Source: an uncultured Selenomonadales bacterium (GTDB lineage Bacteria > Bacillota > Negativicutes > Selenomonadales > Selenomonadaceae). From it: a stretch of DNA of 51,244 bases. The notes beneath the pieces were generated by a model. It made no database searches. It was not told the DNA's origin and saw only the letters and a list, made by a program, of their open reading frames with translations. A program made the position numbers and the translations under genes. The DNA lies in contig CAMZAX010000017.1 of the NCBI GenBank assembly GCA_947304355.1, forward strand, positions 1-51,244. Direction: 5' to 3'. Every line of letters begins with the position of its first letter. The first letter of the stretch is position 1. Shown here piece after piece: positions 13,710 to 44,099 of the stretch.

Positions 13710-16691
13710 TTGAAATATCAGGAATTGGTTTTCGCGTTGCAGAAATTCTGGGCGGACAAGGGTTGCTTGTTGGCGGAGCCCTACGACGTGGAAAAAGGCG
13801 CGGGCACGATGAACCCGTTCACGTTTTTGCGGGTGCTCGGTCCCGAACCTTGGAACACGGCATACACGGAGCCTTCGCGCAGACCGGCGGACGGTCGTTA
13901 CGGCGACAATCCCAATCGCCTTTATCAGCATCATCAGTTGCAGTTGATTATGAAACCGTCGCCCGACAATATCCAGGAACTTTACCTGGAAAGTCTCGCG
14001 GCTATCGGCATTGAGGCGGCTAAGCACGACATTCGCTTCGTCGAGGACAACTGGGAATCGCCGACTTTGGGCGCGTGGGGTCTCGGCTGGGAAGTTTGGC
14101 TTGACGGCATGGAAATCACGCAGTTCACGTATTTTCAGCAGGTTGGCAGTCAAGATGTCAAACCCGTTGCCGTGGAGATAACCTACGGGCTTGAACGGCT
14201 CGCCATGTACATTCAGGGCGTCGAGAATGTTTACGACGTGGAGTGGGCGGACGGCGTCACTTACGGCGACGTTTTTCACCAGAACGAATTTGAGCAGACG
14301 AGTTACGCCTTCGACTTGAGCGACGAAGATTTACTGTTCGACCTGTTCGACAAGTACGAGGCGGAGGCCGTTCGCATTATCAAGCTCGGCTACGTGCACC
14401 CCGCCTACGATTACGTCTTGAAGTGTTCGCACACGTTCAACCTGCTGGACGCACGCGGGGCGATAAGCGTCAGCGAACGCACGGCATTTATCGGGCGCGT
14501 CAGGAAGTTGGCTCGCATGTGCGCCGAAGTTTACATTCAACAGCGCGAAAAGCTCGGCTATCCGCTTTTGAAAGTTAGGAGTGAGGAGTTAGGAGGTAGG
14601 AGTTGTGACGACGCCAAATTAACTCCTAACTCCTACATCCTAACTTCTAACTCTACATTGCTCCTCGAAATCGGCACGGAAGAAATTCCCGCGCACGCAA
14701 TGCCCGGCATCTTGAATCAGCTCAAGTCGTTGGCGGAAAAAGCCTTGACGGAAGCGCGCATCACCTTCGGCACGATTCAAACGCTCGGCACGCCGCGCAG
14801 GTTGGCATTGCTCGTCGACGACGTGGCACCCGCTCAAGCAGACGTGCAGACCGAAAAGCGCGGTCCTTCGGCGAAGATTGCGTTCGACGCGGAAGGCAAA
14901 CCCTCCAAGGCGGCTGTCGGTTTCGCGCGCGGGCAGAAGGTTGCGCCCGAAGATTTAATCACTCGCGACGGCTACGTTTACGCCGTGATTCGCGAACAAG
15001 GTAAACCCTCCGCCGAAATTCTCGCGACGCTCCTGCCGAAGTTGATTTGCGATTTGAACTTCCCCAACAACATGCGCTGGGGCGATTTGGATTTTAAATT
15101 CATTCGTCCGTTGCGCTGGATTGTCGCGCTGTTCGGCTCGGAAGTCATCCCGTTCACCGTCGCCAACGTCGCAAGCGGCAGAACTTCACGCGGTCACAGA
15201 TTTTTAAGCAAAGGCGATTTCGACATCGCGACGGCGGCAGATTACGTCAAAGCCTGCGCGGACAATTTCGTTATCGTCGACCAAGCCAAGCGTCGCGAAC
15301 TTATCGCCGCGCAGATTGAAGCCGTTGCCAAGTCCAAGGGCGGCGTCGCCGAAATAACCGACGACCTGTTGGAGGAAGTGCTTTACCTCGTCGAATACCC
15401 GACGGCACTTGCGGGCGAATTCGAGACGAAATATCTGCAATTGCCCGCCGAAGCCGTGATAACGCCCATGCGCGACCATCAACGCTACTTCCCCGTCAAG
15501 ACGCTCGGCGGCAAATTAATGCCCCTGTTCGTGACGGTTCGCAACGGCGGCAAGGATTATCTTGACATCGTTCAACACGGCAACGAACGCGTCTTGAAGG
15601 CAAGGCTTGAGGACGCACAATTTTTCTTCAACGAAGACCGCACAAAATCTCTGGACGCGCACCGCGACAAACTTAAGACCGTTGTGTTTCAAGAGGGACT
15701 TGGCAGCGTCTACGAAAAGACCGAACGCCTTGTTGAGCTCGTCAAGCGGATTGCCGACATGTTGGGCGTCGACGCGACAAATGCGATTCGTGCGGCGGAG
15801 CTGTCCAAAGCCGACCTCGTGACGGGCATGGTTACCGAATTCACGGAACTGCAAGGCATCATGGGGCGCGAATACGCAAAACTCGACGGCGAAGACGCGG
15901 AAGTCTGCGCGGCGATTGACGAACACTACATGCCGCGTTTCGCGGGCGACGGACAACCCGCGACGACTGCCGGCAAGATTTTGAGCCTCGCCGACAAGAT
16001 TGACAACATCGTCGCGACGTTCAGCCGTGGACTCGTGCCGACGGGCTCGCAAGATCCGTTTGCCCTGCGCCGCCAAGCGTTGGGTATCGTGAACTTGCTG
16101 ACGGGCGCACGTTGGTCGCTGTCGATTGCCGCGATTGTCGAAACGGCTATGGCTTTGCTGAAAATCACGGACGCCGTCGGGCGCGAAAAGATTCAGCAGG
16201 AAGTGGCGGACTTCATGCGCCTGCGCGTCAAAAACGTCCTCGGCGGCTCGACGCGCTACGACGTTATCGACGCTGTGCTTGACGACGTTGACGACGTGTT
16301 TGCAGTCACGTTGAAGGCGGCGGCTGTCGAACAATTCCTTGCGACGCCCGATTCGACGAAAATCATTCAATCGTTCGTGCGCGTGGGCAACCTCGCCAAG
16401 AAAGCCGAATCAGCCGATCTCGACGCGGACTTGTTCACGCTCGACGCCGAAAAAGTTTTGTACCGCTCCTTCGCGGCGATAAAGGTCGCGGCGGACGAAC
16501 TCATCGACAAAAAAGATTTCCTCGGCGCGCTCGACGTGCTGAAAAAGCTTTCCACGCCGATTGATTCGTTCTTCGATTCGGTCATGGTCATGGACGACGA
16601 CTTGACGATTAGACGCAACCGCCTCGCGCTGCTCAGGGCGATTGACGACTTGCTTGCCAAAATCGCCGACTTCGCCAAAATCGTGCAATGA
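13710..16691 (+). CDS. glyQS: Glycyl-tRNA synthetase, alpha and beta subunits fused
   Basis: 993 aa. TTG at 13710 with AAGGAGG 8 nt upstream; the frame extends to 13632 but without a site. Residues 1-288 are GlyQ ([49 protein letters not shown], ending YPLLK). Residues from about 316 are GlyS ([42 protein letters not shown]). Charges tRNA-Gly. In most bacteria these are two genes; here they are one frame. The linker, residues 289-315 (beginning [15 protein letters not shown]), is encoded exactly by a 78-nt palindromic heptamer element (14574-14651). The element thus replaced the glyQ stop and glyS start. Own promoter and preceding terminator. Confidence 0.95.
14574..14651. repeat. 78-nt palindromic heptamer element inside glyQS
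   Basis: Left arm 14574-14604, 16-nt loop containing GTGACGACGCC, right arm 14621-14651. The arms are made of GTTAGGA/TCCTAAC heptamers and match as inverted repeats at 26 of 31 positions. Length is 26 codons, so the frame is kept. Confidence 0.9.
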
Positions 16692-16769
16692 AAATCGGCA
16701 GGAAGTTTCGCAGCCGCGTCGAAAAAGCCAGTAAAACGTAGAGCGATAAATCTAAAAGGAAGAATGATT

Positions 16770-18455
16770 ATGAGTACAAATTTATTTATCGAACTCGGCG
16801 ACGATTCGCCGTTGAGCCGAATCAAAAGCTATTTCGACGCCCTGCAGAATTCAGCGGACGAATACCTTTTCGCTACCGACTTGAGCACGGGGCAAGTCTT
16901 GCTGTCCAAAAACTTCCTGCGAGATTTTGACTTCCCCGATAACGTCGTCGAAGATTTTGCGACGCTGTTGACGCCGTTTGTTTGGCACGACGACCGAGAG
17001 ATCGTCGAAGACGCTTTCGGGCGACTTGATTCGGTCAACCCCGGCATAGAAATTTTTTGCGAATTCCGTCTGCTCAACCGCAACGGCGAATACGGCTGGG
17101 TTTCAATGCGCATGACGGCGAGCGCGGACGAATACGGTCAACCCGAACTCGTCGCCGGCGTGATTGCGCGTATGGATTTGAAACTCAAGGCGGACTACAT
17201 AACCGGTCTGCTCAATCGCAACGCCTTCCATATCGACCTTATGAAGGAACTCAACAGCTCGCCCGACGCTCACGGCGCGGTGATTTTTATCGGGCTCGAC
17301 AACTTCCAACTTATCAGCGAAACTTACGGCTACGAATTCGGCGACAACGCCTTGAGACAGCTCGCGCAAGACATCACGAACATCTTGCCGCCCGATATTC
17401 GCCTCTACAAACTCGATAACGACATGTTCGCGTTTTTCGTCGCGGACGTCTACCCCGAAGAACTCGAAATTATTTTCTCAAGCATTCAGCTTTGCATGCG
17501 CGAGATTCGCAACATAGAGGATACGATTTTCTGCACGGCTTCGGGCGGCGCGACGTTTTACCCCGAAGACGCCGACGACGTGATTACGCTTATGCGCTAC
17601 GCCGAAGTCGCATTGGAATTCGCCCGCCAAAAAGGCAAAGACCAAATCGCGTTCTTCAGCACCGAATACTACGACCGCTGGCGTTACGATATAGGTATGC
17701 AAAACCTCATGCAGAATTCGATCGCGCGCGGTTGCGAAGACTTCTTCCTTTGCTATCAGCCGCAAGTCGACGCCAAAACCGGCAGGCTCGTCGGCGCGGA
17801 GGCTCTGCTTCGTTGGTACGACAAAGACGGCTCGGTTGTCGCGCCAATGCAATTTATCCCGCTGCTTGAACGCTCGCGCATGATTATCCCCGTTGGGCAT
17901 TGGATTATCGAAAACGCCGTGACGACCGCGAAGAAGTGGTGCCAAATTCAGCCGGACTTTGAAGTCAGCGTGAACATTTCGCTTTATCAGCTGGAAGAGC
18001 AAATGTTTTACGAATTCGTCAAGGACTGCATTGAACGCCACGAACTCAACCCGCGCAACTTGGTTTTCGAGTTGACGGAGAGCAACAAGGTCTACGATTG
18101 GGATTTCGTCAACAAGCAGTTCCATCAGTTCCACGAGCTTGGCATTAAAATCGCGATGGACGATTTCGGCATGGGTTACGCCAATCTTGCCTTCATTAAG
18201 AATTTCCGTTGCAACCAAGTCAAGATTGACCGCGCCTTCGTCGAAGACATTCTCAACAGCGAATACGACCGCGAAGTCGTCAAGCACGTCGTCATGATGT
18301 GTCACGCAGTCGGCATGGAAGTCGTTATCGAGGGCGTCGAGGACGAGGCGACTTACATTTACCTGCGCGACGTGTGCGACGCCGACATCATTCAAGGATT
18401 CTACTTCGGCTATCCCGAAACCGAGGACGTCTTTGAAAAGCGTTTCAAGCAGTAA
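16770..18455 (+). CDS. PAS - degenerate GGDEF - EAL protein, likely c-di-GMP phosphodiesterase
   Basis: 561 aa, ATG at 16770 with AAGGA about 9 nt upstream (an ATG 6 nt earlier is too close to the site). No membrane segment seen. Residues about 20-145 look like a PAS-type sensor. Residues about 150-310 are a GGDEF fold whose signature reads DNDMF (216-220), so diguanylate cyclase activity is unlikely. Residues about 320-560 are an EAL domain with intact EAL (344-346), NISLYQL, ELTES, MDDFGMGYAN, KIDRAFV and EGVED, so c-di-GMP hydrolysis is likely. The degenerate GGDEF may regulate the EAL. May link to motility, given flagellar genes in the window. Confidence 0.9.
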   Translation: MSTNLFIELGDDSPLSRIKSYFDALQNSADEYLFATDLSTGQVLLSKNFLRDFDFPDNVVEDFATLLTPFVWHDDREIVEDAFGRLDSVNPGIEIFCEFRLLNRNGEYGWVSMRMTASADEYGQPELVAGVIARMDLKLKADYITGLLNRNAFHIDLMKELNSSPDAHGAVIFIGLDNFQLISETYGYEFGDNALRQLAQDITNILPPDIRLYKLDNDMFAFFVADVYPEELEIIFSSIQLCMREIRNIEDTIFCTASGGATFYPEDADDVITLMRYAEVALEFARQKGKDQIAFFSTEYYDRWRYDIGMQNLMQNSIARGCEDFFLCYQPQVDAKTGRLVGAEALLRWYDKDGSVVAPMQFIPLLERSRMIIPVGHWIIENAVTTAKKWCQIQPDFEVSVNISLYQLEEQMFYEFVKDCIERHELNPRNLVFELTESNKVYDWDFVNKQFHQFHELGIKIAMDDFGMGYANLAFIKNFRCNQVKIDRAFVEDILNSEYDREVVKHVVMMCHAVGMEVVIEGVEDEATYIYLRDVCDADIIQGFYFGYPETEDVFEKRFKQ

Positions 18456-18473
18456 AGTTTTGGAGGTTTTATC

Positions 18474-18914
18474 ATGAAGTGCAAAGTTTTAACGGCTGTC
18501 ATTTGCGGCGCGATTATGTTGGCTTCGACGTTGTGCTTTGCGGCGGTCGACGGCGGCAAGATTGCGTTGGGCGGCATTTCCCCCGGCATGAGCGAAACCG
18601 ATTTGCTTAACACCTTCGGGCAGCCGAGTAACAGGAGCGGCGACGATTGGACTTATCCGAACTTCAAAGTTGAAGTCGAACGCGGCATTGTCAAGGAAGT
18701 TTCGACGACGAGCCAAGCGATTGCGACGCCGAACGGCGTGCGCGTCGGGCAGGGTGCTGCGGCTCTTAACACAACCTTCGGAAGGGCGGACAGCGTCGAC
18801 AGCGATTACAACGACACCGAATACACATATCACAGCACCGACGGCATTAAGAAGATTGAATTCAAGGTTGTCAACGGCGTCATTGCGAAAATCACTTGTG
18901 AGCTTAGAGATTAA
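18474..18914 (+). CDS. Secreted protein with two BamE/OmlA-like repeats
   Basis: 146 aa, ATG with TTGGAGG upstream. Signal peptide of about 24 residues (MKCKVLTAVICGAIMLASTLCFA) with signal peptidase I type site. The mature part holds two similar modules: GGISPGMSETDLLNTFGQPS... and GVRVGQGAAALNTTFGRADS..., each followed by beta strands ending in G-I-V-K-E-V or G-V-I-A-K-I. This is the pattern of the SmpA/OmlA (BamE-like) fold. Role unknown; outer-membrane proximity is inference. Confidence 0.75.
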   Translation: MKCKVLTAVICGAIMLASTLCFAAVDGGKIALGGISPGMSETDLLNTFGQPSNRSGDDWTYPNFKVEVERGIVKEVSTTSQAIATPNGVRVGQGAAALNTTFGRADSVDSDYNDTEYTYHSTDGIKKIEFKVVNGVIAKITCELRD

Positions 18915-18921
18915 CGATTAC

Positions 18922-19893
18922 ATGAAGACGATAAAATTTTTCCTAATCTGCGCGGCTGCGGTCGGCGGATTTTTTTTTAGCTTGATTAACGGCTCCGTCG
19001 AAATTTCGTCCGCGCAGGTCTTGACGGATTTATTTGGCGGCGAAGTCGCAATCGACGAAACGAAGCACCGGATACTCGAAAACATTCGCTTGCCGCGCAC
19101 AATCGTCGCGGTGCTCGTCGGCGTGAATTTGTCGCTGTCGGGCGCGATACTGCAAGCGGTAATGAAAAACCCGCTCGCCGATCCGCATATAATCGGAATC
19201 TCGTCGGGAGCAGGTTTATTCGGGATTTTCGCAATGATGGTCGCCGGTGACGCGCTTTTGGTGACGCCCGCCGCGTTCGTCGGAGCAATGTTGGCTGCGT
19301 CGCTGATTTACGTTTTGGCGTGGAAGGACGGCATTCGCCCGATTCGCGTGATATTGGCGGGCGTGGCTGTCAGCGCATTCCTCGGCGCGGGCATTTCGGC
19401 TTTGCTGATTTTTGCCGGCGATAAAGTTCAAGGCGCGTTGATGTGGATGGTCGGCGGGCTGTCGGCGCGAAGTTGGCAACACGTCGAACTTTTATTGCCG
19501 TATTCAATCGCGGGGACGTTGGCGACGTTTTTGGCGGCACGACACTTGAACGTTTTGCAACTCGGCGACGAAGTGGCAACGGGCTTGGGTTTGCGCGTCA
19601 ATCTCGTGCGGACGGTCTTGACGGCAATCGCGGCGTTGCTTGCGGCGTCTGCGGTCTGCGTCGTCGGCTTACTCGGTTTCGTCGGGTTAATCGTCCCGCA
19701 CACGGCAAGATTGATTCTCGGCTCCGATTACCGAATACTTTTGCCGGGCGCGGCGACTTTGGGCGCGGCAGTCGTCACGATAAGCGACACCGTTGCCCGA
19801 ACGCTTTTCGCCCCCGCCGAATTGCCCGTCGGAATTTTGATGGCGATGTTGGGCGCGCCGTTCTTCCTGTACCTGTTGCGCCGCGAGCTTTAA
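18922..19893 (+). CDS. FecCD-family ABC transporter permease
   Basis: 323 aa, ATG at 18922, 7 nt after the previous stop. Hydrophobic throughout with about 8-10 predicted membrane segments. NIRLPRTIVAVLVGVNLSLSGAILQAVMKNPLADP and FVGLIVPHTARLILGSDYR are family hallmarks of importers for siderophores, haem or cobalamin (BtuC/FhuB/FecCD). No substrate-binding protein or ATPase gene is adjacent, so it must work with components elsewhere. A cobalamin gene (cbiB) is 1.3 kb away, which makes B12 or cobinamide a possible substrate, but this is only proximity. It converges on the next gene with a 4-nt overlap. Confidence 0.85.
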   Translation: MKTIKFFLICAAAVGGFFFSLINGSVEISSAQVLTDLFGGEVAIDETKHRILENIRLPRTIVAVLVGVNLSLSGAILQAVMKNPLADPHIIGISSGAGLFGIFAMMVAGDALLVTPAAFVGAMLAASLIYVLAWKDGIRPIRVILAGVAVSAFLGAGISALLIFAGDKVQGALMWMVGGLSARSWQHVELLLPYSIAGTLATFLAARHLNVLQLGDEVATGLGLRVNLVRTVLTAIAALLAASAVCVVGLLGFVGLIVPHTARLILGSDYRILLPGAATLGAAVVTISDTVARTLFAPAELPVGILMAMLGAPFFLYLLRREL

Positions 19894-21127: not shown

Positions 21128-21206
21128 AATGAAACCTCCTTCGCAGGAAAATCAATCGCCCGCCCGAATAAACGTTGACGAAAAATTTTTAATGGAGACT
21201 GATTTG

Positions 21207-22885: not shown

Positions 22886-22995
22886 GAAAATTCCCTCCAA
22901 TCGATTAATGGCTTGAATTTTACCGCGACGAAAGGCTATAATCAAGCGTAAAACTTAGGGGCTGTTGGTCAAATCTGACAGTGACGGCTCTAATA

Positions 22996-23066
22996 GTTAG
23001 GAGGTAGGAGTTAGGAGTTATAAAAACGCAAATTTAACTCCTAACTCCTAATTCCTCACTCCTAAC
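22996..23066. repeat. Palindromic heptamer element, intergenic copy
   Basis: Left arm 22996-23019 (one heptamer shorter than in glyQS), 16-nt loop with ACGCAAA, right arm 23036-23066. 71 nt, so not frame-neutral, and it contains stop triplets in the frames that glyQS and rlmD copies keep open. Confidence 0.88.
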
Positions 23067-23134
23067 TGAAAAAATTCCTCGTCACATGATGATTTTGAGT
23101 TTACCAACACGCATTGAACGGAACGTGATTTGCC

Positions 23135-25320: not shown

Positions 25321-25410
25321 TTTTAGCTTTTAGCTTTTAGCTGTTAGCTTTTAGCTTTTAGCTGTTAGCCCAAATTCTAAAAGCTAAAAGCTAATCCCTA
25401 AAAGCTAATC
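25321..25410. repeat. Palindromic heptamer element (TTTTAGC/TGTTAGC)
   Basis: Seven 7-nt units on the left arm (25321-25369), short spacer CCAAATT, then inverted units (TAAAAGC) to 25410. Different unit from the GTTAGGA family but same architecture. Lies just upstream of leuA. Confidence 0.88.
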
Positions 25411-34679: not shown

Positions 34680-34698
34680 GTAACGTCACCTCCAAAAA

Positions 34699-34776
34699 GC
34701 AATGCGTAATTAGAAATACGCAATGCGCAATTAAATGCGTCAACCATTGCGCATTACGCATTGCGCATTTCGCATT
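34699..34776. repeat. Palindromic heptamer element (ATTACGC/GCGTAAT family)
   Basis: Left arm 34699-34732, right arm 34746-34776, units such as ATTGCGC and ATTACGC. Lies between fliG and fliH; the fliG stop (34775-34777) is in its edge. Confidence 0.85.
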
Positions 34777-35800
34777 AAACCAACATGCCTTCGCCGCCGC
34801 CGCGCACAATGACGATAACGCCTTTGTCTTCGAGCGTGCGAATGACGTTGACGACTTTGGTCTGGGCTTCTTCCACGTCGCGAATCTTGACGGGACCCAT
34901 GTAGGAAATTTCTTCCTTGAGCATATCGGCGGCGCGCTTGGACATGTTCTTGTAAATTTTTTCGGCAACGTCGTCGGAAGTCGCCTTCATTGCAAGCGCA
35001 AGGTCTTTGGTGTCGACTTCGCGCAAGACAAGCTGCAACGAACGGTCGTCCAGCAAAATGATGTCCTCGAACACGAACATGAGTTGCTTAATTTCCTCGG
35101 CGAGTTCGGGGTTGTCGACTTCCAGCGATTCGATAATGGCGCGCTCGGTTGCTCTGTCGACGCGGTTGAGGATTTCGACGACAGCAGGGACGCCGCCCGC
35201 GCTCGTGAAGTCTTGGGTTGACAGCGAAGAAATTTTCCGCTCCAAAACGCGTTCGATTTCGCGGATAACGTCCGGCGACGTTCTGTCCATAAGCGCGATA
35301 CGCTTTGCAACGTCGGACTGCGAATCGATTGACAAGCCGCTCATGACGATACCGGCTTGGTCGGGCGACAGATACGCCATAACCAGCGCGATGGTCTGCG
35401 GGTGTTCGTTCTGCAGGAAGTTCAGCAGTTGTGACGGGTCGGTCTTGCGCAGGAACTCGAACGGGCGCACCTGCAGGCTCGTCGTGAGTCGTTTGAGTAT
35501 ATCGGTCGCCTTTTCCGCGCCGAGAGCTTTTTCAAGAACGGATTGCGCGTATTCAAGCCCGCCGGTTGAAATGTAGTCGTTAGCCATCATCAGCTGATAG
35601 AATTCGCTGATAACCATGTTTTTCTTTTCGATGCTGACTTGCTTGTTGTTGGCGATGTCAAGGGTGATTGCTTCGATTTCTTCTTCGTCCATGTGCGCGA
35701 AAACTTTTGCCGCGTAGTCGCCGCCGAGAGCGATAAAGAGAATCGCCGCCTTTTCGTGAGCTGACATGGGTTTGGGCTCGCTGTACATATCGTCCGCCAT
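34775..35800 (-). CDS. fliG: Flagellar motor switch protein FliG
   Basis: 341 aa. ATG at 35800 with GGAGGTAAT upstream. C-ring rotor protein that receives torque from MotA. KPMSAHEKAAILFIALGGDYAAKVFAHM (FliG-N), EHPQTIALVMAYLSPDQAG (EHPQ motif of the middle domain) and MFVFEDIILLDDRSLQLVLREV (FliG-C, with the charged torque helix) are present. Usual length. Confidence 0.97.
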   Translation of the reverse strand: MADDMYSEPKPMSAHEKAAILFIALGGDYAAKVFAHMDEEEIEAITLDIANNKQVSIEKKNMVISEFYQLMMANDYISTGGLEYAQSVLEKALGAEKATDILKRLTTSLQVRPFEFLRKTDPSQLLNFLQNEHPQTIALVMAYLSPDQAGIVMSGLSIDSQSDVAKRIALMDRTSPDVIREIERVLERKISSLSTQDFTSAGGVPAVVEILNRVDRATERAIIESLEVDNPELAEEIKQLMFVFEDIILLDDRSLQLVLREVDTKDLALAMKATSDDVAEKIYKNMSKRAADMLKEEISYMGPVKIRDVEEAQTKVVNVIRTLEDKGVIVIVRGGGEGMLV

Positions 35801-35823
35801 GTTATTACCTCCGTTCAAAAGAA

Positions 35824-35892
35824 AAGGGACAAGGGATTAGGGACAAGGGACAAGAAAAAACTTGTCCCTTAACCCTTGTCCCTTGTCCCTAA
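35824..35892. repeat. Palindromic heptamer element (GGGACAA/TTGTCCC)
   Basis: Arms of GGGACAA and TTGTCCC units about a six-A loop, between fliG and fliF. The same unit family is inside purL and the mqnE-like gene. Confidence 0.9.
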
Positions 35893-35898
35893 AACAAA

Positions 35899-37665
35899 TC
35901 ACTCGTCTTCGATGAGCCACATCTTGATAAGCCAAGCGACTTCTTCGGGCTTCTCGTCGATTAGTTTCAAGATAGCTTCTTTCTCCATGTTGTGTTGACG
36001 TTCTTCGGGTGTGAGACCGTCGTCTTCATCTTCCTCGTCTTCGTCTTCGGAGGCAACGCCGCCGCCTTTGACGCCCGCGACGCCTTCCGCGACGCCTTCC
36101 GCCGTGATACCCATTGCCGCCAATTCCGACGCACGCGCTTCGGCTTCGGCAAGGCGTTGTTCGATTTGCTCCGCCTCGATGCGCTTTTGCTCCATCTCTT
36201 CGGCGCGCCGCTTTTCTTCCTCGGCTTTAAGAGCCGCCTCTTTCGCCAACCGTTCAGCCTCAAGCTTAGCCTCAAGAGCCGCCTGACGCTCTTTGCGTTT
36301 GCGCCAGCGATACATAAGGAAACCGCCCAACAATAATGCCGCAAGTAAAATCATAGCCGCAATCTCCGTGTAGAAAATCCTGTCTTTGCGTAATTGTTCA
36401 AGCCGCGCCGCTTCAGCCTGTTGGTCGATAAGGCTGGTGTCAAACGGCATGGGCTCGACGGAAATGGTGTCGCCGCGTGCCTCGTTGATACCCGCCGCAG
36501 AACTTACGGCTCTAAGCAAGCCTTCCTGCTGAAGTTCGGTGATTTCGTCGCTGACCAAGACGGCAACGGTAAGGCGGCGAATGGAGCCGGGCGACGCTAT
36601 GATTTTCTGGTTTTCCTCGTTTATCTCGTAATTGCGCGTCGACTCTTTGCGCTCGTATTCGGCGTTGGCGTTTCGTTCCTCGGCGACGTAACCGGGGATA
36701 TTTGCTTGCACGCCTGCGGGACCTCCGGGCATGTTCGATTCGCCGCTGTAGCTTTCGCTGATGTCCTGTTGGCTGCGAATGATACCCGATTCGTCGACCA
36801 CGGGCGTGAAAGTTTGACGGTCAACTTTCCTGTCGTCGAAGTCAAGTTCCACGCTGACACGCACGAAAGCGTTGCCCTCGCCGAGCGTCTTGTCCAGCAT
36901 GGTTTGAATATTTTGCTGAATGTGATCGCGCACCCGTTTGGTCATTTCAATCTGGTTGAGCGTCCGCAAGTTTTGCGCGTTTTGCTTTTCAAGTTCGTCG
37001 TCGTCGCTCTTGTTTAGGATGTTGCCCTGTTCGTCGACGATGGTGATATTTTCGGGCGCGAGCCCTTGAACGCTGTGGCTGACAAGATTGACAATGCCTT
37101 TGACTTCGGGCACGGTCAATTTGGTTTCGGGTTTAAGCATCAACAGGATTGACGCCGTCGCGGGCTTTTCATTTTTTTTGTAGAGACTGTCCTCCGGCAA
37201 AACGATATGAACGCGCGCCTTGTCCACGCTGTCCAAGTGTTCGATTGTGCGCGTCAGCTCCCCTTGAAGGGCTTGAAGGTAATTAACTTTATTTTGGAAC
37301 TCCGTGACGCCGAGCTTGCTGTCGTCGAACAGTTCAAACCCTTTATTGCCGCGCGGCAGTCCCGCACTCGCCAACTCAAGCCTAAGGTCGTGCACTTGCG
37401 TGACGGGGACGAGGATTGTCGCGCCGCGTTTATCTTCAATAAGTTCATAAGGGACGCCCGTTTCTTTCAGGCTGTTCACAACGTCGCCGGCGTCTTTCGT
37501 CTCCAAATTGGTATACAGCGGCACATATTCGGGCTTGCTGCCGTACCAGAAACTGATTCCGACAAAGGCAAGTATCAGCGCGATTATCCCGCCGATAAAA
37601 GCGTAACGTTGCTTTTTGTCGAATCTGTTCCAGAGCTCCCGAAGCCGCTCCCTCCAATTCGCCAA
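35899..37665 (-). CDS. fliF: Flagellar MS-ring protein FliF
   Basis: 588 aa, TTG at 37665 with AAAGGA about 9 nt upstream; the open frame extends to 37704 through repeat sequence. Forms the MS ring, the base of the flagellum. N-terminal membrane helix (YAFIGGIIALILAFVGISFW), YxPLYTNL, GLPRGNKGFELFDDSKLGVTEFQNKVNYLQALQGELTRTIEHLDSVDKARVHIVLPE-type ring-building motif, and a C-terminal membrane helix near residue 435. An unusually long cytoplasmic tail rich in Glu, Ala and Lys (ALEAKLEAERLAKEAALKAEEE) precedes the acidic FliG-binding end. Confidence 0.95.
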   Translation of the reverse strand: MANWRERLRELWNRFDKKQRYAFIGGIIALILAFVGISFWYGSKPEYVPLYTNLETKDAGDVVNSLKETGVPYELIEDKRGATILVPVTQVHDLRLELASAGLPRGNKGFELFDDSKLGVTEFQNKVNYLQALQGELTRTIEHLDSVDKARVHIVLPEDSLYKKNEKPATASILLMLKPETKLTVPEVKGIVNLVSHSVQGLAPENITIVDEQGNILNKSDDDELEKQNAQNLRTLNQIEMTKRVRDHIQQNIQTMLDKTLGEGNAFVRVSVELDFDDRKVDRQTFTPVVDESGIIRSQQDISESYSGESNMPGGPAGVQANIPGYVAEERNANAEYERKESTRNYEINEENQKIIASPGSIRRLTVAVLVSDEITELQQEGLLRAVSSAAGINEARGDTISVEPMPFDTSLIDQQAEAARLEQLRKDRIFYTEIAAMILLAALLLGGFLMYRWRKRKERQAALEAKLEAERLAKEAALKAEEEKRRAEEMEQKRIEAEQIEQRLAEAEARASELAAMGITAEGVAEGVAGVKGGGVASEDEDEEDEDDGLTPEERQHNMEKEAILKLIDEKPEEVAWLIKMWLIEDE

Positions 37666-37680
37666 TAAACTCAGTCCTTT

Positions 37681-37757
37681 CCAGGAACAAGGGACAAGGG
37701 ACAAGGGACCAGCAGGGTTTAGATACTAGTCCCCGGTTCCTAATCCCTAGTCCCTAC
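37681..37757. repeat. Palindromic heptamer element between fliF and fliE
   Basis: Units GGGACAA and, on the other arm, TAGTCCC/GGTTCCT, with an imperfect centre. Abuts the fliE stop codon. Confidence 0.85.
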
Positions 37758-38059: not shown

Positions 38060-38098
38060 ATCGTCACCTTCCTTTTAAAGTCGGGAGTTTCCAACGGC

Positions 38099-38548
38099 TT
38101 ACTTGCCGATGTCCAACGCTTTTGTAATCATTGCCTTGGCGGCGGTTATCGCGGTTGAATTCGCCTCATAAGCGCGTTGGGCGGTAATCATATCGATCAT
38201 TTCGCTGACCATGTTGACGTTGGGCTTTTCGACGTAGCCGTCGGCGTTGGCGTCGGGATGCCCCGGGTCGTAGACAAGCGGACCGGGCGTATCGTCCTCG
38301 GCGATTTCGACGGCGCGGACGCCTTCGCTTGCTTGGCGACTCATGCCGACAGCTTTCATAAGCGTTTGCTCGAAAGATTTTGGCTCGCGCTCTCGCGGCT
38401 CGAAGACAACGTATCGGCGTCTGTAAGCCCCGCCGCGGTCGGTGCGCGTCGTGTTCGCGTTGGCGATATTGTTTGAAATAACGTCCATTCGTAATCGCTC
38501 GGCAGTCAAGCCCGAAGCCGAAGCGTCAATTCCCAAAAACAATCCCAT
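38099..38548 (-). CDS. flgC: Flagellar basal-body rod protein FlgC
   Basis: 149 aa. Proximal rod protein. GIDASASGLTAERLRMDVISNNIANANTTRTDRGGAYRRRYVVFE and VEKPNVNMVSEMIDMITAQRAYEANSTAITAAKAM are the conserved N- and C-terminal helices. Follows flgB after a heptamer tract. Confidence 0.96.
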   Translation of the reverse strand: MGLFLGIDASASGLTAERLRMDVISNNIANANTTRTDRGGAYRRRYVVFEPREREPKSFEQTLMKAVGMSRQASEGVRAVEIAEDDTPGPLVYDPGHPDANADGYVEKPNVNMVSEMIDMITAQRAYEANSTAITAAKAMITKALDIGK

Positions 38549-38561
38549 AAAATTTTTCTCC

Positions 38562-38597
38562 TCTAGTTCCCAGTTCCTAGTTCCTAGTCCCTAGTTA
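38562..38597. repeat. Heptamer tract (TAGTTCC/TAGTCCC) between flgC and flgB
   Basis: About five units; ends at the flgB stop codon (38595-38597). Confidence 0.85.
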
Positions 38598-39020
38598 TTG
38601 TTGCCCGCTGGTAATGGCGTTTCTCATTGTGGTGACGTAGCCGCCGAACTGCGTGGCAATCGCGTTGTAGTAAAGTTGATTCTTCGCCAACGACGCCATT
38701 TCAATATCGATGTCGACGTTGTTTTTGTCCATGCGCATTGTCGTGGAATTGTCCTGCACGATTTGCGGCTCGGCGTGGAATGCAAGAGGCTCAAACGGCA
38801 AATGTTTATCGTGCGTCCGTACAAGTTTCAACTTCCCGTCGGGTTCTTCGTCGTAAATTTCTCGCGCCAACAGCTCTTCAAACTCTACGACCGATCTTTT
38901 GTAATTCGGCGTATTGACGTTCGCAATGTTGTCGGCAATGACTTCCTGCCGAATGTTCGCCGCCGTCATGGCTCGCGGCAGATAATTAAAATTCGACGAA
39001 TTAAAGATTTGCTCAAGCAC
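38595..39020 (-). CDS. flgB: Flagellar basal-body rod protein FlgB
   Basis: 141 aa, GTG at 39020; AAAGGTGAG lies 12-15 nt upstream, slightly far, so the start is likely but not certain. First gene of the flagellar operon and first rod protein. FNYLPRAMTAANIRQEVIADNIANVNTPNYKRSVVEFEELLA and DIDIEMASLAKNQLYYNAIATQFGGYVTTMRNAI are typical. Confidence 0.94.
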   Translation of the reverse strand: MLEQIFNSSNFNYLPRAMTAANIRQEVIADNIANVNTPNYKRSVVEFEELLAREIYDEEPDGKLKLVRTHDKHLPFEPLAFHAEPQIVQDNSTTMRMDKNNVDIDIEMASLAKNQLYYNAIATQFGGYVTTMRNAITSGQQ

Positions 39021-39086
39021 GCCTGTTTCACTCACCTTTCCGGCTGTTCGTTTGATAAGTACGATGTTCCGAAAAAATCTTTGTCG

Positions 39087-39115
39087 ATTGTACAACAGAA
39101 AAAAACTTTGTTCAA
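39087..39115 (-). promoter_or_regulatory. Sigma-A promoter of the flagellar operon
   Basis: On the minus strand TTGAAC (39115-39110), 17-nt spacer, TACAAT (39092-39087), about 65 nt upstream of flgB. Confidence 0.75.
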
Positions 39116-39268
39116 CCTTGCCGATAAAAATCGCAAATAAGCTTTTCAATGTTGTTTATAATTTTCCTTTAGCAGGCTCAAAAAAATTTTTGGCGGGCGG
39201 TAGGGATTAGCAACGGCGGGTAGAAATTTTAGGCGCAACGATAATCTTTAGTGGGAGTCTTTAAACTG

Positions 39269-40396
39269 ATGAATCGCAGAAATTTTATACGCAACCTTTT
39301 AATCGGCGGCGCGGGCTTGGCGGCGGCTGCGGGCGGCGGAATTTTTTATTACGTGCGCCAACCGCAATTCGGGCGACTGCCGACGGGCTCGCGGCTCGAA
39401 AAAATTTTGGCGTCCCCGCATTACTTCGGCGACCACTTTGAATGTCTCACGCCCGTCAAAGTCATGAGCGACGACGTTCACGAAAAAGAAAATCGAATCG
39501 CCGCGACGTGGAAATTTCTTTTCGGCGACAAGACCGGTTTGGTGCCGACCGCGCCCGTGCCGACCGTCAAGACCGATTTGAATTCGCTCGGCAACGACGA
39601 CTGCGCCGTTTGGATGGGTCACTCGACGATTTATCTGCAACTCGCCGGACGAAAAATTTTGCTCGACCCGGTGTTTTCGCCGTACGCCTCGCCGATTTTT
39701 TTCGTCAATCGCGCGTTCGCGGGCAGCAACGTCTACACCGCCGCCGACTTCCCGACCATTGACATCTTGGCGATAACGCACGACCATTGGGATCATCTCG
39801 ACTACCCGACAATCAGCGCGCTCAAGCCCAAAATCAAAACCGTGCTGTGTCCGCTGGGCGTTGGCGAATATTTTGAGCAATGGGGCTTCGACGCCGAAAA
39901 AATTATCGAAGACGATTGGGACGCCGTGATTGACTTCGGACACGGCTTGACGGCGCACATTTTGCCGAGCCAACATTTTTCGGGACGCATGTTGACGCAG
40001 AATCCGACCGAGTGGTGCGCGTTCGCCTTCGTCACGCCCGCGCGAAAAATTTTTTGTTCGGGCGACGGCGGCTACTCTGAGCACTTCCGCGACATCGGCA
40101 AAAAGTTCGGCGGCTTCGACTTGGCGTTCATGGAAAACGGGCAATACAATCGCGCGTGGCACGCGATTCATCTTTTGCCCGACGAGACCGCGCAAGCGTC
40201 CGACGACATTCGCGCCGCAAAGGTCGTGCCGATTCACGCCGGGAAGTTCGCGCTTGCCCGCCACGAATGGAACGCGCCTTACAAAGATTTGCTTGCCGAA
40301 AGTGCGGGAAGAAATTACGAGCTCCTGACCCCGCGCATCGGCGAGTTGATAACTTTCGACCGCGAGCAAAATTTTCAGCTGTGGTTCGATTTTTAA
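39269..40396 (+). CDS. Metallo-beta-lactamase fold hydrolase, N-terminal signal
   Basis: 375 aa, ATG at 39269 (GGGAG 11 nt upstream; a GTG at 39251 is the alternative). N-terminus RRNFIRNLLIGGAGLAAAAGGG looks like a twin-arginine signal or membrane anchor. WMGHSTIYLQLAGRKILLDPVFSPYASP and the Zn motif THDHWDHLD, plus IHAGKF later, put it in the UlaG/NAPE-PLD-like branch. Substrate unknown; phospholipid or nucleotide-like esters are the family range. Divergent from the flagellar operon. Confidence 0.85.
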   Translation: MNRRNFIRNLLIGGAGLAAAAGGGIFYYVRQPQFGRLPTGSRLEKILASPHYFGDHFECLTPVKVMSDDVHEKENRIAATWKFLFGDKTGLVPTAPVPTVKTDLNSLGNDDCAVWMGHSTIYLQLAGRKILLDPVFSPYASPIFFVNRAFAGSNVYTAADFPTIDILAITHDHWDHLDYPTISALKPKIKTVLCPLGVGEYFEQWGFDAEKIIEDDWDAVIDFGHGLTAHILPSQHFSGRMLTQNPTEWCAFAFVTPARKIFCSGDGGYSEHFRDIGKKFGGFDLAFMENGQYNRAWHAIHLLPDETAQASDDIRAAKVVPIHAGKFALARHEWNAPYKDLLAESAGRNYELLTPRIGELITFDREQNFQLWFDF

Positions 40397-40463
40397 GATG
40401 GACAGATGGAAAGATGGACAGATTGACAGCTAAAAACTCTCCATCTACCCATCTACCCATCTA
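40397..40463. repeat. Palindromic octamer element (GATGGACA / CCATCTAC)
   Basis: Four 8-nt units on the left arm and three on the right about a TAAAAACT centre. Period 8 instead of 7 but same architecture as the other elements. Confidence 0.85.
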
Positions 40464-40480
40464 AAACAGGAGGGTTTGTC

Positions 40481-41128
40481 ATGAAAAATCTTATCGTCAT
40501 TAACGGAAGTCCGCGCAGAAATTGGAACACCGCCGAGCTGCTTAAACACGCCGTGAAGGGTGCCGAGGACGCCGGCGCGTCGACCGAATTGGTCAACCTG
40601 TATTCGTTGCACTACAAGGGCTGCACGAGCTGCTTCGCCTGCAAAATTAAGACCCGCCCGCACGGAATCTGCGCCATGAGCGACGACCTGTCGCCCGTCT
40701 TGGAACGCGTCAAAGAGTCCGACGCGATTATCTTCGGTTCGCCGATTTACTTCATGAATCTGTCCGCCGGCATGATTGCGTTTATCGAGCGGCTGTTCTT
40801 TTCAAATTACATTTACAGCGACGAAATCCCGACCGTCTTCCCGAAGAAAATGCCGAGCGCGTTTTTCTACACAATGAACATGACCGAAAAGCAATTCGAG
40901 CAATTCGGCATGAAAGAACGCCTTGGCATGTACGAGCTGTTCACGCGGCGCATCTTGGGCGTCACGCCGAAAATCCTGCGCGCTTACAATACCGTGCAGT
41001 TCAAAGACTATTCGCGCTACGAAAGTTCGATCTTCGACCCCGAAGACAAATTCGCTTACCGTGAGAAACATTTCGCCGAAGACTGCGCGGCAGCTTACGA
41101 AATCGGGCGCGCCTTGGTTGCAGAATGA
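40481..41128 (+). CDS. Flavodoxin-like NAD(P)H-dependent oxidoreductase
   Basis: 215 aa, ATG with AGGAGGG upstream. FMN-binding flavodoxin fold: VINGSPRRNWNTAELLK (phosphate loop), DAIIFGSPIYFMNLSAGM. A Cys cluster (GCTSCFACK, followed by GICAMSD) resembles iron-sulfur flavoproteins. Probable electron-transfer or quinone/metal reductase. 4-nt overlap with the next gene. Confidence 0.85.
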   Translation: MKNLIVINGSPRRNWNTAELLKHAVKGAEDAGASTELVNLYSLHYKGCTSCFACKIKTRPHGICAMSDDLSPVLERVKESDAIIFGSPIYFMNLSAGMIAFIERLFFSNYIYSDEIPTVFPKKMPSAFFYTMNMTEKQFEQFGMKERLGMYELFTRRILGVTPKILRAYNTVQFKDYSRYESSIFDPEDKFAYREKHFAEDCAAAYEIGRALVAE

Positions 41129-41754
41129 TTTACCTGCTTGCAATCGCGGCGGGCGTCGCGTTGGTGTTGCTGTATAAATTTTCGTCGACGCCAAAAAATT
41201 TTATCATCATCTGCACGTTGGTCATCTCCGTGTTCGGCGCGAGCGCGTTCATCCGAATCCAACAGCTTGAGCAGGAACAAATTTCGCGGGCGCAACTTGA
41301 GGAACTGCAGGCGCAACAAAAAATCTTCGGCGAATGGTACGCGGCTTATCAAAAGCACATCGACCGCCTCGATCGAAATTGGCAGTCGTATCACAACATC
41401 ATTGACGGCTTGCAGTCCGTCGACGCGCAGACTTTTAACGCCGAGGCGACCAATGCGCGCTTAAAGGATTTGGAGCAGGACGCCGTTGACGAACAAGTTC
41501 AAATCCACATGCTGACCGCGCCGCAGGGTTTGGACAGCGAAATTCGCGCCCGCGTCGACGCCGTGATTCAAAAGACGCAACTTTATGCCGAGGCGCAGAC
41601 TCGCACAATCAGCCTGTCCGAAAACGCCTCCGTGCCGCCCGTCGACTTGGATACGTTGCGCCTGAGCCTCAACGACATCATGATTCGCGAATCGCCCGAA
41701 GGTCTTTTCACCGCGCAGGAAATTTCGGCAATACGCGCCGCATTAGGTGATTGA
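41125..41754 (+). CDS. Membrane protein with coiled coil, unknown
   Basis: 209 aa. Two hydrophobic segments at the N-terminus (IYLLAIAAGVALVLLY and IIICTLVISVFGASAF), then about 130 residues of coiled coil (QLEQEQISRAQLEELQAQQK). No known domain. Lies between the flavodoxin gene and ribF, with overlaps or near-overlaps to both, so transcribed with them. Confidence 0.75.
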   Translation: MIYLLAIAAGVALVLLYKFSSTPKNFIIICTLVISVFGASAFIRIQQLEQEQISRAQLEELQAQQKIFGEWYAAYQKHIDRLDRNWQSYHNIIDGLQSVDAQTFNAEATNARLKDLEQDAVDEQVQIHMLTAPQGLDSEIRARVDAVIQKTQLYAEAQTRTISLSENASVPPVDLDTLRLSLNDIMIRESPEGLFTAQEISAIRAALGD

Positions 41755-41755
41755 A

Positions 41756-42679
41756 TTGGAAATCATAAAAAAACTTACCGGCTTGACAAAAAAATATCCG
41801 CACCCGGTCGTCGCGCTCGGCATGTTCGACGGCGTTCACTTGGGGCACGCTGCCGTTATCGGGCACGCTGTCGACGTTGCCAAAACAATCGGCGGCACCG
41901 CGCTGGTCTTCACGTTCTCGAATCACCCGCTGACGGTTATCGCGCCCGACGACGCGCCGCTTATGATCGGCAGCAAAAATCTCCGCCGCGAAATTTTTGA
42001 CGGCTTGGGCGTCGACGTGCTGATTGAAATTCCCTTCACGAAGGATTTCAGCCGCAAATCGCCCGAAGAATTTTTGGAACTCCTTCAAGAAAAAATCGCG
42101 CCCGCTTACGTCGTCACAGGACCGAATTACACGTTCGGGCGGTTCGGGCGCGGCAACGGGCGTCTGCTCCTGCGCGAGGCTCACGCTTACGGCTTCAAAG
42201 CGGAAGTTTGTCAGGCGTTCACCGTCGACAGAAAAATCGTCAGCAGCACGCGGATTCGCGCTTTGATTGCGGCGGGCGACTTGGCGGGCGCGAATGAACT
42301 TTTGGGCAGAAATTTCACTTACGCGGGCGAAGTCGTCAACGGCGACAGGCGCGGACGCAAGCTCGGCTTCCCGACGGCGAATCTGGAAATTTCCGATAAA
42401 CGTGCCATGTTGCCCAACGGTGCTTACGTCGTGCGCGTCAAGGTTCGCGGGCAAGACTTCAACGGAATCGCCAATATCGGCGACAATCCCACGTTCAAGG
42501 CGCAACGGCGGCGGTTGGAAGTTTTTATCGACAACTTCAGCGGCGACATCTACGGCGAAGAAATTTTCGTCGGCTTCGTCAGCAAGTTGCGCGACGAAAA
42601 AATTTTTGCCTCCGTCGACGATTTGAAGGCTCAACTGAACGAAGACCTAAGGATAATGCGAAATGCCACAAGCGATTAA
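41756..42679 (+). CDS. ribF: Bifunctional riboflavin kinase / FAD synthetase
   Basis: 307 aa from TTG 41756 (AGGTGA 5 nt upstream); GTG 41747 is the alternative and lacks a site. N-terminal FAD synthetase: GMFDGVHLGH, SNHPLTVI, TGPNYTFGRFGRGN, SSTRIRALI. C-terminal flavokinase: GRKLGFPTANLEI and NGIANIGDNPTF. Makes FMN and FAD. Overlaps rlmD by 17 nt. Confidence 0.95.
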   Translation: MEIIKKLTGLTKKYPHPVVALGMFDGVHLGHAAVIGHAVDVAKTIGGTALVFTFSNHPLTVIAPDDAPLMIGSKNLRREIFDGLGVDVLIEIPFTKDFSRKSPEEFLELLQEKIAPAYVVTGPNYTFGRFGRGNGRLLLREAHAYGFKAEVCQAFTVDRKIVSSTRIRALIAAGDLAGANELLGRNFTYAGEVVNGDRRGRKLGFPTANLEISDKRAMLPNGAYVVRVKVRGQDFNGIANIGDNPTFKAQRRRLEVFIDNFSGDIYGEEIFVGFVSKLRDEKIFASVDDLKAQLNEDLRIMRNATSD

Positions 42680-44099
42680 AATTCACGGACTCGGCTCGTC
42701 GGGCGAAGGCGTCGGCAAACTCGGCGAGCTTATTATTTTTGTCGAAGGCGCGTTGCCCGGCGAAGACGTTCTTGCCGAAATCGAAACGCGCAAAAAAAAT
42801 TACGCGGTCGGTCGTCTCGTCGAAGTCGTCAAGCCGTCGCCCGAACGCGTCGCGCCTTTTTGCCCGCTGTATCAAAATTGCGGCGGCTGTCAACTTCAAC
42901 ACATGAGCTATCCCGCGCAGTTGAAATGGAAACGTCAACAGGTCGTCGACGCGATTGAACGCATCGGCAAGTTTGAAATAGTTAGGAGTGAGGAGTTAGG
43001 AATTAGGAGTTATGACGACGCAAAAACAACTCCTAACTCCTACCTTCTAACTCCTAACTGTAATGACGGCGTTGAAGTCTTCGCGACGCTCGGCATGGAA
43101 AATCCCCTGCGTTATCGCAACAAAATGCAATTCCCCGTCGGTCGCGGCAAGGGCGGCTTGATTGTCGGCTGTTACGCGCGCGGCAGTCACAAAATCATTG
43201 ACGCGTCGTCGTGCCCGATTCAAAACGCCGGCAACGACAAAATCTTGAACGCCGTCCGCACCGTCGCCGAAAAGTTCAAGCTGCAACCCTACGACGAAGA
43301 CACGCACAAAGGTTTCCTGCGCCACGTCATGGGTCGCGTCGGTTCGGGCGGCGAATTGATGATCGTACTCGTCACGGCAAGCTCGAACTTCCCCAACGCA
43401 AAAAATTTCGTCCGCGCCCTGCGAAACGAATTGCCCGAAGTCACGAGCATTCAGCAAAACGTTCAGACCTTCCGCAACAACGTCATACTCGGTCGCGACA
43501 CGAAAGTTTTGTACGGCAAGCCGACGATTCGCGACACGATTGGCGGGCTCAAGTTCAACATATCGGCGCGTTCGTTCTTTCAAGTCAACACGGCGCAAGC
43601 GGAAGTTCTTTACAAGACCGCGCTTGACTTCGCGAATCTGCGCGGCAACGAAACGGTTATCGACGCGTACTGCGGCACGGGCACAATCGGCTTGTTCATG
43701 GCGCGCAAAGCCCGCAAGGTTATCGGCGTGGAGGTCGTCAGTTCAGCCGTCGCCGACGCCATTAAAAACGCGCGCGAAAACAAAATCCGCAACGCCGAAT
43801 TCATAACGGGCGACGCCGTGAAAATTTTGCCGCGCCTGTTCGACGCCGGGACTTATGCCGAAGTCGTCGTCGTTGACCCGCCCCGCGCAGGTTGCGACGG
43901 AAAAGTTTTGGAGACCTTCGCCGCAATGGAGCCCGAAAAAATTGTTTACGTGTCGTGCAATCCCGCGACGCTCGCCCGCGATTTGAAAATTCTTGACGGC
44001 TTGGGCTATCGGACAAAAAAAATTCAGCCTGTCGACATGTTTCCGTTCACGTCACATGTCGAGGCTGTTGCACAAATTTTTAAGCAAGCGTCGCGTTAA
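42663..44099 (+). CDS. rlmD: 23S rRNA (uracil-C5)-methyltransferase RlmD-type
   Basis: 478 aa. TRAM-like N-terminus, Fe-S Cys motif CPLYQNCGGCQLQH (about 67-80), SAM domain YCGTGTIGLFMA and VVDPPRAGCDGKVL, with the nucleophile in YVSCNPATLARD. Methylates U1939 or an equivalent in 23S rRNA. Residues 107-132 (VRSEELGIRSYDDAK and on) are an insert encoded by a 78-nt palindromic element in the loop after the cluster domain; flanks continue normally (KFEI before, FATLGMENPLRYRNKM after). RumA or RlmCD identity not separable here. Confidence 0.92.
   Translation: MPQAIKIHGLGSSGEGVGKLGELIIFVEGALPGEDVLAEIETRKKNYAVGRLVEVVKPSPERVAPFCPLYQNCGGCQLQHMSYPAQLKWKRQQVVDAIERIGKFEIVRSEELGIRSYDDAKTTPNSYLLTPNCNDGVEVFATLGMENPLRYRNKMQFPVGRGKGGLIVGCYARGSHKIIDASSCPIQNAGNDKILNAVRTVAEKFKLQPYDEDTHKGFLRHVMGRVGSGGELMIVLVTASSNFPNAKNFVRALRNELPEVTSIQQNVQTFRNNVILGRDTKVLYGKPTIRDTIGGLKFNISARSFFQVNTAQAEVLYKTALDFANLRGNETVIDAYCGTGTIGLFMARKARKVIGVEVVSSAVADAIKNARENKIRNAEFITGDAVKILPRLFDAGTYAEVVVVDPPRAGCDGKVLETFAAMEPEKIVYVSCNPATLARDLKILDGLGYRTKKIQPVDMFPFTSHVEAVAQIFKQASR
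42981..43058. repeat. 78-nt palindromic heptamer element inside rlmD
   Basis: Left arm 42981-43011, 16-nt loop (ATGACGACGCAAAAAC), right arm 43028-43058. The arms match as inverted repeats at 27 of 31 positions. Same length, loop and codon phase as the glyQS copy. Confidence 0.92.

Follow-up and report, generated by a model that had tools for sequence, protein, structure and literature searches.

Heptamer arrays and small dispersed repeats are known from cyanobacteria, in which the STRR heptamers occupy intergenic positions. Among the systems closest to the one described here, Rickettsia palindromic elements (RPEs) are small dispersed palindromic repeats that are found in frame in protein-encoding genes, measure about 150 bp and fall into ten families, with 44 integrations in genes of R. 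conorii, according to a review (PMC10969869). The TAACTGA repeats of Beggiatoaceae, Cyanobacteria and Bacteroidetes (PMC4679880) are tandem heptamers present at many places, mostly intergenic and with stop codons in one orientation; sets were described within open reading frames (ORFs), one of them RNA polymerase beta-prime-like, and a single word forms direct arrays, with one indirect repeat and with inserts chiefly at protein ends. A proposal cited in the same paper holds that 7 nt may be the stretch touched by the polymerase. REPINs consist of short inverted pairs, scattered over a genome, that fold into hairpins (PMC3116915). The present study concerns a 51,244-nt stretch, referred to here as the window, from an uncultured Selenomonadales bacterium (contig CAMZAX010000017.1 of assembly GCA_947304355.1), which carries a palindrome of about 80 nt built from AGTTAGG heptamers, present in frame in glyQS (glycyl-tRNA synthetase) and rlmD (23S rRNA methyltransferase) and dispersed over the genome.

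No report of in-frame heptamer hairpins in Selenomonadaceae was found in the open-licence literature, most subscription papers lying outside that scope, and the Quinella genome paper (PMC9585023), by text search, contains one match to 'repeat' and none to 'palindrom-' or 'heptamer'.

Genomes and sequence searches

The window represents contig 17 of a draft genome (G000) of 2.41 Mb in 66 contigs, which is 88% complete. Comparison genomes bear G labels, with G010 as the nearest relative of G000, and individual sequence stretches or records bear L labels; G010, included in a flank comparison of 10 further genus genomes, and L054, included in the orthologue set, seem to be one record, and these sets overlap. 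All genus members used for comparison are draft genomes. RlmD relatives were mostly derived from rumen Selenomonadaceae, two of the records being named Quinella sp., and on the strength of this list the source is probably a Quinella-like rumen member of the Selenomonadaceae.

Arms were searched using a 25-nt AGTTAGG arm pattern with up to three mismatches, employing the pattern read backwards and first-order Markov windows as controls. The element catalogue was built from the roughly 100 arm matches listed out of 123, and all catalogue counts given below are lower bounds. Elements were scored as open if both the element and the 30 nt flanking it at either end were free of stops. Tandem arrays were scanned by lag (4 to 13, 14 and 21) in 400 kb of G000, and were scored as genic or intergenic with a codon-bias gene caller. 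The RlmD tree was based on 47 rows from which the insert columns had been excluded.

In-frame palindromes in glyQS and rlmD

Two in-frame palindromic copies, which the initial annotation had placed at 14574-14651 and 42981-43058, are present as claimed, with 69 of 78 bases identical. The peptides of 26 residues were shown to be nearly the same (21 shared residues), the rlmD copy reading VRSEELGIRSYDDAKTTPNSYLLTPN, and the 31-nt arms pair at 26 positions in the glyQS copy and at 27 in the rlmD copy around loops of GTGACGACGCCAAATT and ATGACGACGCAAAAAC, respectively. The natural ends of the family, AGTTAGG...CCTAACT, extend both copies to 80 nt (Table 1). Full genic copies carry GAG in place of TAG in the left arm and TAC in place of TAA in the right arm, in agreement with the stop-avoiding changes noted at the outset. 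Both copies are also in phase 0 of their ORFs, as had been observed, but this is weak evidence because 7 and 3 share no factor, so that a heptamer array yields one and the same cyclic heptapeptide (VRS*ELG) whichever frame of a strand is read; equal phase was consequently set aside as evidence.

The length added to rlmD is not the 78 nt originally proposed, as the gain relative to the nearest relative amounts to 90 nt. The empty site is exact in that relative, in which ...GGCAAGCTTGAA is joined to GGAGTCGAAGTC..., while GAA and GGC are separated by 90 nt in the window. The 30 insert columns are empty in all 80 RlmD orthologues, and the flanking matches are at most 4 nt apart in the nine (of 10) further genus genomes that matched. 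Compared with RlmCD of S. pneumoniae (5xj1), the aligned parts end at residue 107 and resume at 112, corresponding to window residues 102 and 137. The element was thus shown to add a peptide to a protein, as had been suggested, by a true in-frame gain, and no distant orthologue with the same residues and without repeat DNA was found.

The copy in glyQS is in frame as described, but does not interrupt a single protein: the genes on either side were ancestrally separate, and the element now belongs to their fusion. Among 25 genomes, 23 produced a match, and the alpha and beta subunits are encoded in one frame in four of these (G000, G010, G001 and G005, the last being cut at its 5' end). In 15 unfused genomes the junction was read (by eye for G014 and G012), and a stop there precedes a separate glyS, whereas for G006, G007, G022 and G023 only separate matches to the glycyl-tRNA synthetase subunits were seen. 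The words at the fused junctions differ: the AGTTAGG palindrome in G000, an AATGCGT/C array in G010, GGAGTTA/GGAATTA units followed by CTGTAAG-type units in G001, and AATGCG units followed by AACAGCT-type units in G005. Inspection by eye indicates that the G000 element replaces about 40 nt of the G012 glyQ/glyS junction.

A third gene, purL, had been proposed to hold a copy; an AGTTAGG element is indeed open in its frame, but consists of one arm only and does not form a full palindrome. The variable loops of PurL contain heptamer stretches of differing strength, and several relatives carry other words at these loops.

A dispersed family of AGTTAGG palindromes

The arm pattern yielded 13 matches in the window, compared with none in each of 20 first-order Markov windows, and 123 matches across G000, compared with none for the reversed pattern. 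At least 44 elements (at least 67 arms) were catalogued, comprising at least 23 full palindromes and at least 21 single arms; other copies were therefore found when the genome and its relatives were searched, and the view of a dispersed element stands. Full copies consist of two arms of ~32 nt (about 4.6 AGTTAGG heptamers each) around a loop of 14-16 nt of a common type, TGACGACGC-AATTT. Their lengths are 78 nt (eight copies), 73 nt (four), 80 nt (three), 71 nt (three) and 66, 77, 79, 85 and 94 nt (one each) among the 23 catalogued.

A perfect AGTTAGG array contains a stop in every frame within 21 nt, and 38 of the 44 catalogued elements are not open in any frame, intergenic copies being the majority. 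The remaining six are each open in only one of six frames, which is the frame favoured by the codon scores of both flanks. These six are located in glyQS, rlmD, purL (one arm) and a group-1 glycosyltransferase-like gene on contig C28, and, as single arms, in an oxidoreductase gene with thiamine pyrophosphate-enzyme and ferredoxin domains on C5 and in a P-type ATPase gene with heavy-metal domains on C6. The genic elements occupy variable loops, a gene junction or positions between domains. A search for relatives of the IorA-, CopA- and glycosyltransferase-like hosts returned only distant CopA-type matches, for which reason these inserts are named as such from the repeat sequence alone.

Stop-free full copies number three among the 23 catalogued and are precisely the three within genes (glyQS, rlmD and the glycosyltransferase-like gene), all of 80 nt. 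They are mutually nearest, with pairwise values of 0.85, 0.78 and 0.78 against a mean of 0.58 for other pairs, the best of which also reaches 0.85; either a common stop-free ancestor or selective convergence could account for this.

Covariation between arms was considered and rejected, since the arms of a copy are less complementary to each other than are randomly paired arms: within-copy arms agree at 417 of 500 positions in 20 full copies, the three of odd size among the 23 having been omitted, and a value as low as this is reached in two of 20000 random pairings. If anything, these 20 copies look as though near-perfect palindromes were avoided.

Further insertion sites in RlmD

At about residue 20 of RlmD, five species (L062 and L077-L080) carry an in-frame element of AGTTAGG or AATTAGG type, four of these elements being full palindromes; that of L078 reads AVRSYELGGRSYNDAEQLLTPNSSLL. 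The insert has the same left border in all five species, which form no single clade on the best tree, and near relatives are without it. A single clean ancestral insertion at this site was considered: three changes are needed on the best tree (bootstrap range 2-3), although the well-supported branches alone force only one. Three different words occupy one loop at about residue 160, namely a GGGACTAG-type word in L054, an AATGCGC-type word in L055 and a CCCCAGT-type word in L081. Altogether, in-frame heptamer inserts were observed in nine of 32 RlmD proteins (the window and L054-L084).

Heptamer words across the genus

The 400 kb of G000 contain 35 arrays at lag 7 (28 at lag 14 and nine at lag 21), compared with no more than two at any other lag from 4 to 13. 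For G010, 12 arrays were observed at lag 7 and at most three at other lags, while G003 and G020 show no excess. Near rlmD loci, closer relatives have 24 arrays in 214 kb, the next group seven in 135 kb and the Selenomonas group none in 170 kb.

The AGTTAGG arm pattern, besides its matches in G000, produced 63 in G016 (one for the reversed control), fewer in 11 further genus members and none in 12 genomes of other genera; in some of the 11 lower-count members the matches are really AGTTAGT arrays. With up to two mismatches, five of 397 other genomes sampled across the phylum gave one to four AGTTAGG matches, compared with 99 in G000, and none were obtained in 10 sampled genomes from other genera of the family. 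TTGTCCC gave 184 matches in G000, 13 in G010 and none in 23 others, and CTAGTCC gave 57 in G010, 17 in G000 and eight in four others. The AGTTAGG palindrome thus represents just one heptamer family out of several, and sister species differ in the word that prevails. The same slots hold other words in sister species at the glyQ/glyS junction, the RlmD loop and the PurL loops. Both the window and further parts of G000 contain hairpins armed with other words, and none were found in the G010 sample under the same rule.

Of 51 G000 arrays, 37 are intergenic, 12 genic and two partial, with 91% of the sequence called coding; a single element contributes two of the 12 as its arms, and an array in dnaE was scored intergenic owing to the start chosen by the caller. 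In G010, eight of 15 arrays are genic. The dnaE array, of TTGTCCC units, lies within the first 15 codons of the G000 gene (L220, 15084-18509, on contig C19), which starts MSDELVPCPLSLVPNF. One linker of a protein of ~850 residues carries TAGGAAC units in G000; in G010 the units are TAGGGAC.

Comparison of G000 with G010 listed 30 insertions of at least 14 nt (27 if the rlmD region is counted once), six distinct ones having a 7-nt period, and among 20 random stretches none of four G000 gains had such a period. Heptamers as the main source of insertions between these genomes were not used as evidence, as four of the six period-7 cases came from stretches chosen for their elements and the other two from rlmD. 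One 93-nt gain in G010, opposite position 5091 of L210, is a hairpin with a unit of 8 nt (AGGGAAAT / TTCCCTTA) rather than 7.

A viral vector was likewise considered and rejected: exact AGTTAGG arrays occur on 11 and TTGTCCC arrays on three IMG/VR stretches, several of them hairpin-rich, with no link to the genus. Five IMG/VR contigs (L277, L280, L281, L283 and L285) of 0.59-0.68 G+C were seen to contain many heptamer arrays and heptamer-armed hairpins, AGTTAGG being among several words; L285 has 21 heptamer arrays in 14 kb.

Insertion junctions and insertion sequence-type ends

The intergenic copy of the window, described initially as having lost 7 nt and kept its stops, is real and retains stops, but is not merely a shortened form: four of the 23 full copies are 73 nt, and this one is located inside a shell with insertion sequence (IS)-type ends. 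These ends resemble those of an IS4/IS5-type element of about 0.86 kb in G010, with ends GGGGCTGTTGGTAAA and a visible transposase gene. IS4/IS5-type ends are located at six G000 contig ends (L048, L049, L185, L205, L211 and L221), with heptamer units adjoining in L048, L049 and L221. They flank both sides of two and one side of one of the 44 catalogued elements, and bound the shell rather than the palindrome. Besides these contig ends, the IS4/IS5-type element, its ends or short shells holding AGTTAGG palindromes were noted at 22956-23111, in L020 and L035 and in L227 (from 1937).

Direct repeats of at least 4 nt occur near the ends of four of the 23 full copies, compared with a shuffled mean of 5.0, and strictly adjacent repeats of at least 3 nt in only one of the 23. 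None of seven AGTTAGG loci with a G010 counterpart has a palindrome there; five counterparts are short or unrelated sequences, one is a different heptamer array and one a longer spacer. Target bases were apparently replaced at the sites compared with G010, except in RlmD. The PF01797 profile (Y1 transposase) found no match in G000, an 88% complete draft, or in 15 of 18 other genus genomes searched.

Other features of the window

Table 1. Heptamer-related features of the window, with their host genes
Feature	Position	Strand	Basis
glyQS, glycyl-tRNA synthetase alpha and beta subunits, one ORF	13632-16691	+	PF02091 (residues 29-306), PF02092 (343-883); NCBIfam glyQ, glyS and fused glycine-tRNA ligase models
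Full AGTTAGG palindrome, 80 nt, open in glyQS frame, alpha/beta boundary	14573-14652	+	Arm search, junction comparison with relatives
rlmD, 23S rRNA uracil(1939)-C5-methyltransferase	42663-44099	+	TIGR00479, 499.5 bits
90-nt in-frame gain in rlmD	42978-43067	+	Empty site in nearest relative; orthologue columns
Full AGTTAGG palindrome, 80 nt, open in rlmD frame	42980-43059	+	Arm search, census
purL, phosphoribosylformylglycinamidine synthase, three heptamer stretches in variable loops	46044-49766	-	TIGR01857; loops compared with relatives
Single AGTTAGG arm, open in purL frame, LGVRNEELGIKN	47092-47122	-	Census, comparison with relatives
TTGTCCC array in purL, LVPCPLSLVPS	47846-47882	-	Array scan, comparison with relatives
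Degenerate heptamer stretch in purL, GTRNRELGT, the weakest of the three	46899-46939	-	Comparison with relatives
Full palindrome between genes, 73 nt, interrupted by stops in each of the six frames	22995-23067	+	Arm search, frame scan
MITE-like shell enclosing the intergenic palindrome; ends TAGGGGCTGTTGGTCAAA and TTTACCAACA resemble those of an IS4/IS5-type element	22956-23111	.	End comparison
TTGTCCC array, in frame, radical SAM gene with CofH/MqnC C-terminal domain (ORF 7993-9072)	8271-8300	+	
Hairpin, TTTTAGC arms, other heptamer family, between called genes	25321-25410	.	
Hairpin, GGGACAA / TTGTCCC arms, between ORFs 34775-35818 and 35899-37704	35824-35890	.	
Hairpin, AATGCG-type arms	34708-34776	.	

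Two further observations concern sequences elsewhere in the window. A long ORF on the reverse strand (2-3049) has many degenerate repeats of ~54 nt, and resembles a gene for a calcium-binding RTX-type repeat protein. Related short coding stretches (49906-49989 with 50363-50446, and 6727-6786 with 50742-50801) are 79-80% identical and are taken here to recall leader peptides of the nitrile-hydratase-leader type (LSDEQLDQVAGG); the three leader-like ORFs tried had no match in NCBIfam.

Spread of the element and alternative explanations

In-frame heptamer palindromes within a genus-wide heptamer repertoire represent a well-supported pattern. The palindrome is a dispersed hairpin, one of several heptamer families multiplied in the Quinella-like genus. 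Regarding its origin, there is in our judgement an even chance that it spreads by being copied into new sites, with in-frame stops being purged and the peptide being tolerated. A hairpin or array already present would serve as the source of new copies, written in through template switching or synthesis during break repair, a process that would mostly replace some target bases and leave no target duplication. Selection would remove stop-bearing copies from genes, leaving a stop-free sublineage in tolerant loops, and slippage and recombination could later shift arrays towards the word now common in a species. Rather than serving a selected function, the added peptide is most probably a by-product that is tolerated. 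The mobility proposed initially is inferred from presence and absence of copies among relatives, and so is the mode of spread, as no target duplication exceeds chance and no Y1 transposase was detected in the draft.

Several observations weigh against spread by copying. No copying event was observed and no donor was identified, and the RlmD gain is a clean insertion without loss of a base relative to G010, of the kind that a transposase could produce. Hitch-hiking on IS-type ends may account for some of the spread. A transposase may be missing from the incomplete draft, and among other genus members partial PF01797 matches exceed the cut-off in G002 and G014, with one below it in G007. The lack of arm covariation gives no sign that the hairpin itself is maintained, and the patchy distribution of the residue-20 insert in the RlmD tree fits exchange or loss as well as repeated gain.

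The main rival to copying during repair, which is favoured here, is an unrecognised transposase acting in trans on a non-autonomous element of the miniature inverted-repeat transposable element (MITE), REPIN or RPE type, the heptamers being merely its sequence. Constant ends and a conserved loop over 23 catalogued full copies, the clean RlmD gain, and the IS4/IS5-type transposase element of G010, the ends of which recur in G000 around two palindromes and beside a third, make this possible, if doubtful. Conversely, it is at odds with the lack of target duplication above chance, with the 41 of 44 catalogued elements that are without shell ends and with the PF01797 search results, and one element family would not explain why several unrelated words share the same architecture and sites.

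A bolder idea, tentatively put forward and rather improbable, is that a dedicated and so far undescribed process writes the current word of a species and re-writes arrays at fixed slots, amounting to genome-wide concerted evolution within coding sequences. If true, protein linkers, including loops of essential enzymes, would be overwritten repeatedly.

Retention for function, whether by a peptide that alters enzymes or by a hairpin that regulates genes, is considered unlikely. In-frame copies persist in glyQS, purL and rlmD, dnaE contains a heptamer array, a repeat-derived GlyQS linker is kept by four sister genomes, and the catalogued copies are mostly intergenic, all of which such a function could explain; however, sequence, word and site vary between sister species, most RlmD orthologues are without the insert, and the arms do not covary.

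Local growth of each array, by slippage starting from a heptamer that was ancestral or had arisen by chance, appears very unlikely as a general origin. The unfused glyQ/glyS overlap of some relatives (e.g. G012) does read AATGCGTAATGG, equal to 1.6 units of AATGCGT, the junction word of G010 and G005, and slippage may account for the growth or shrinkage of single arrays. Nonetheless, it cannot generate paired inverted arms around a common loop at numerous loci, the shared loop already disfavouring it for the palindromes, or one word at more than 100 places in one species. An assembly or binning artefact, which the draft status of the genus members and the IS ends at contig ends might evoke, can practically be dismissed, as in-frame elements diverged in sequence occupy one RlmD site in five separately deposited records and reading frames are kept open.

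Insertion into an essential enzyme is usually fatal for the gene, and here a natural series of tolerated in-frame insertions is available from many species at mapped sites, the glyQ/glyS gene fusion being one case among them. Spread without an evident transposase, removal of stop codons, the origin of new linkers and the joint re-writing of dispersed repeats within a species thereby become testable questions. Predicted proteins of these rumen bacteria should be read with the warning that they contain repeat-derived peptides.

Comparison with known systems

With the TAACTGA and STRR-type repeats, the system shares the excess of a 7-nt period and the mostly intergenic arrays observed in G000. 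Unlike the TAACTGA repeats, it draws on several words, its arms form inverted pairs around a loop, and its inserts occupy loops of conserved enzymes and positions between domains. REPINs lie outside genes and are linked with a Y1 transposase, while the 88% complete G000 draft has no PF01797 match and the arms of the present element are heptamer arrays. MITEs differ as well, in that no target-site duplication above shuffled sequences was seen in the 23 catalogued full copies.

The element also resembles RPEs, which the initial annotation had invoked with the qualification that the element is built from heptamers. This comparison holds insofar as the palindrome is dispersed (23 full copies among 44 catalogued elements) and is gained in frame (RlmD, as opposed to 80 of 80 orthologues), but requires amendment in that it is one of several heptamer families that share sites in sister species; it is also shorter (about 80 nt), heptamer-built and, for 38 of 44 catalogued elements, open in no frame. 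By analogy, the element appears to work like an RPE, the likeness drawn here being one of behaviour.

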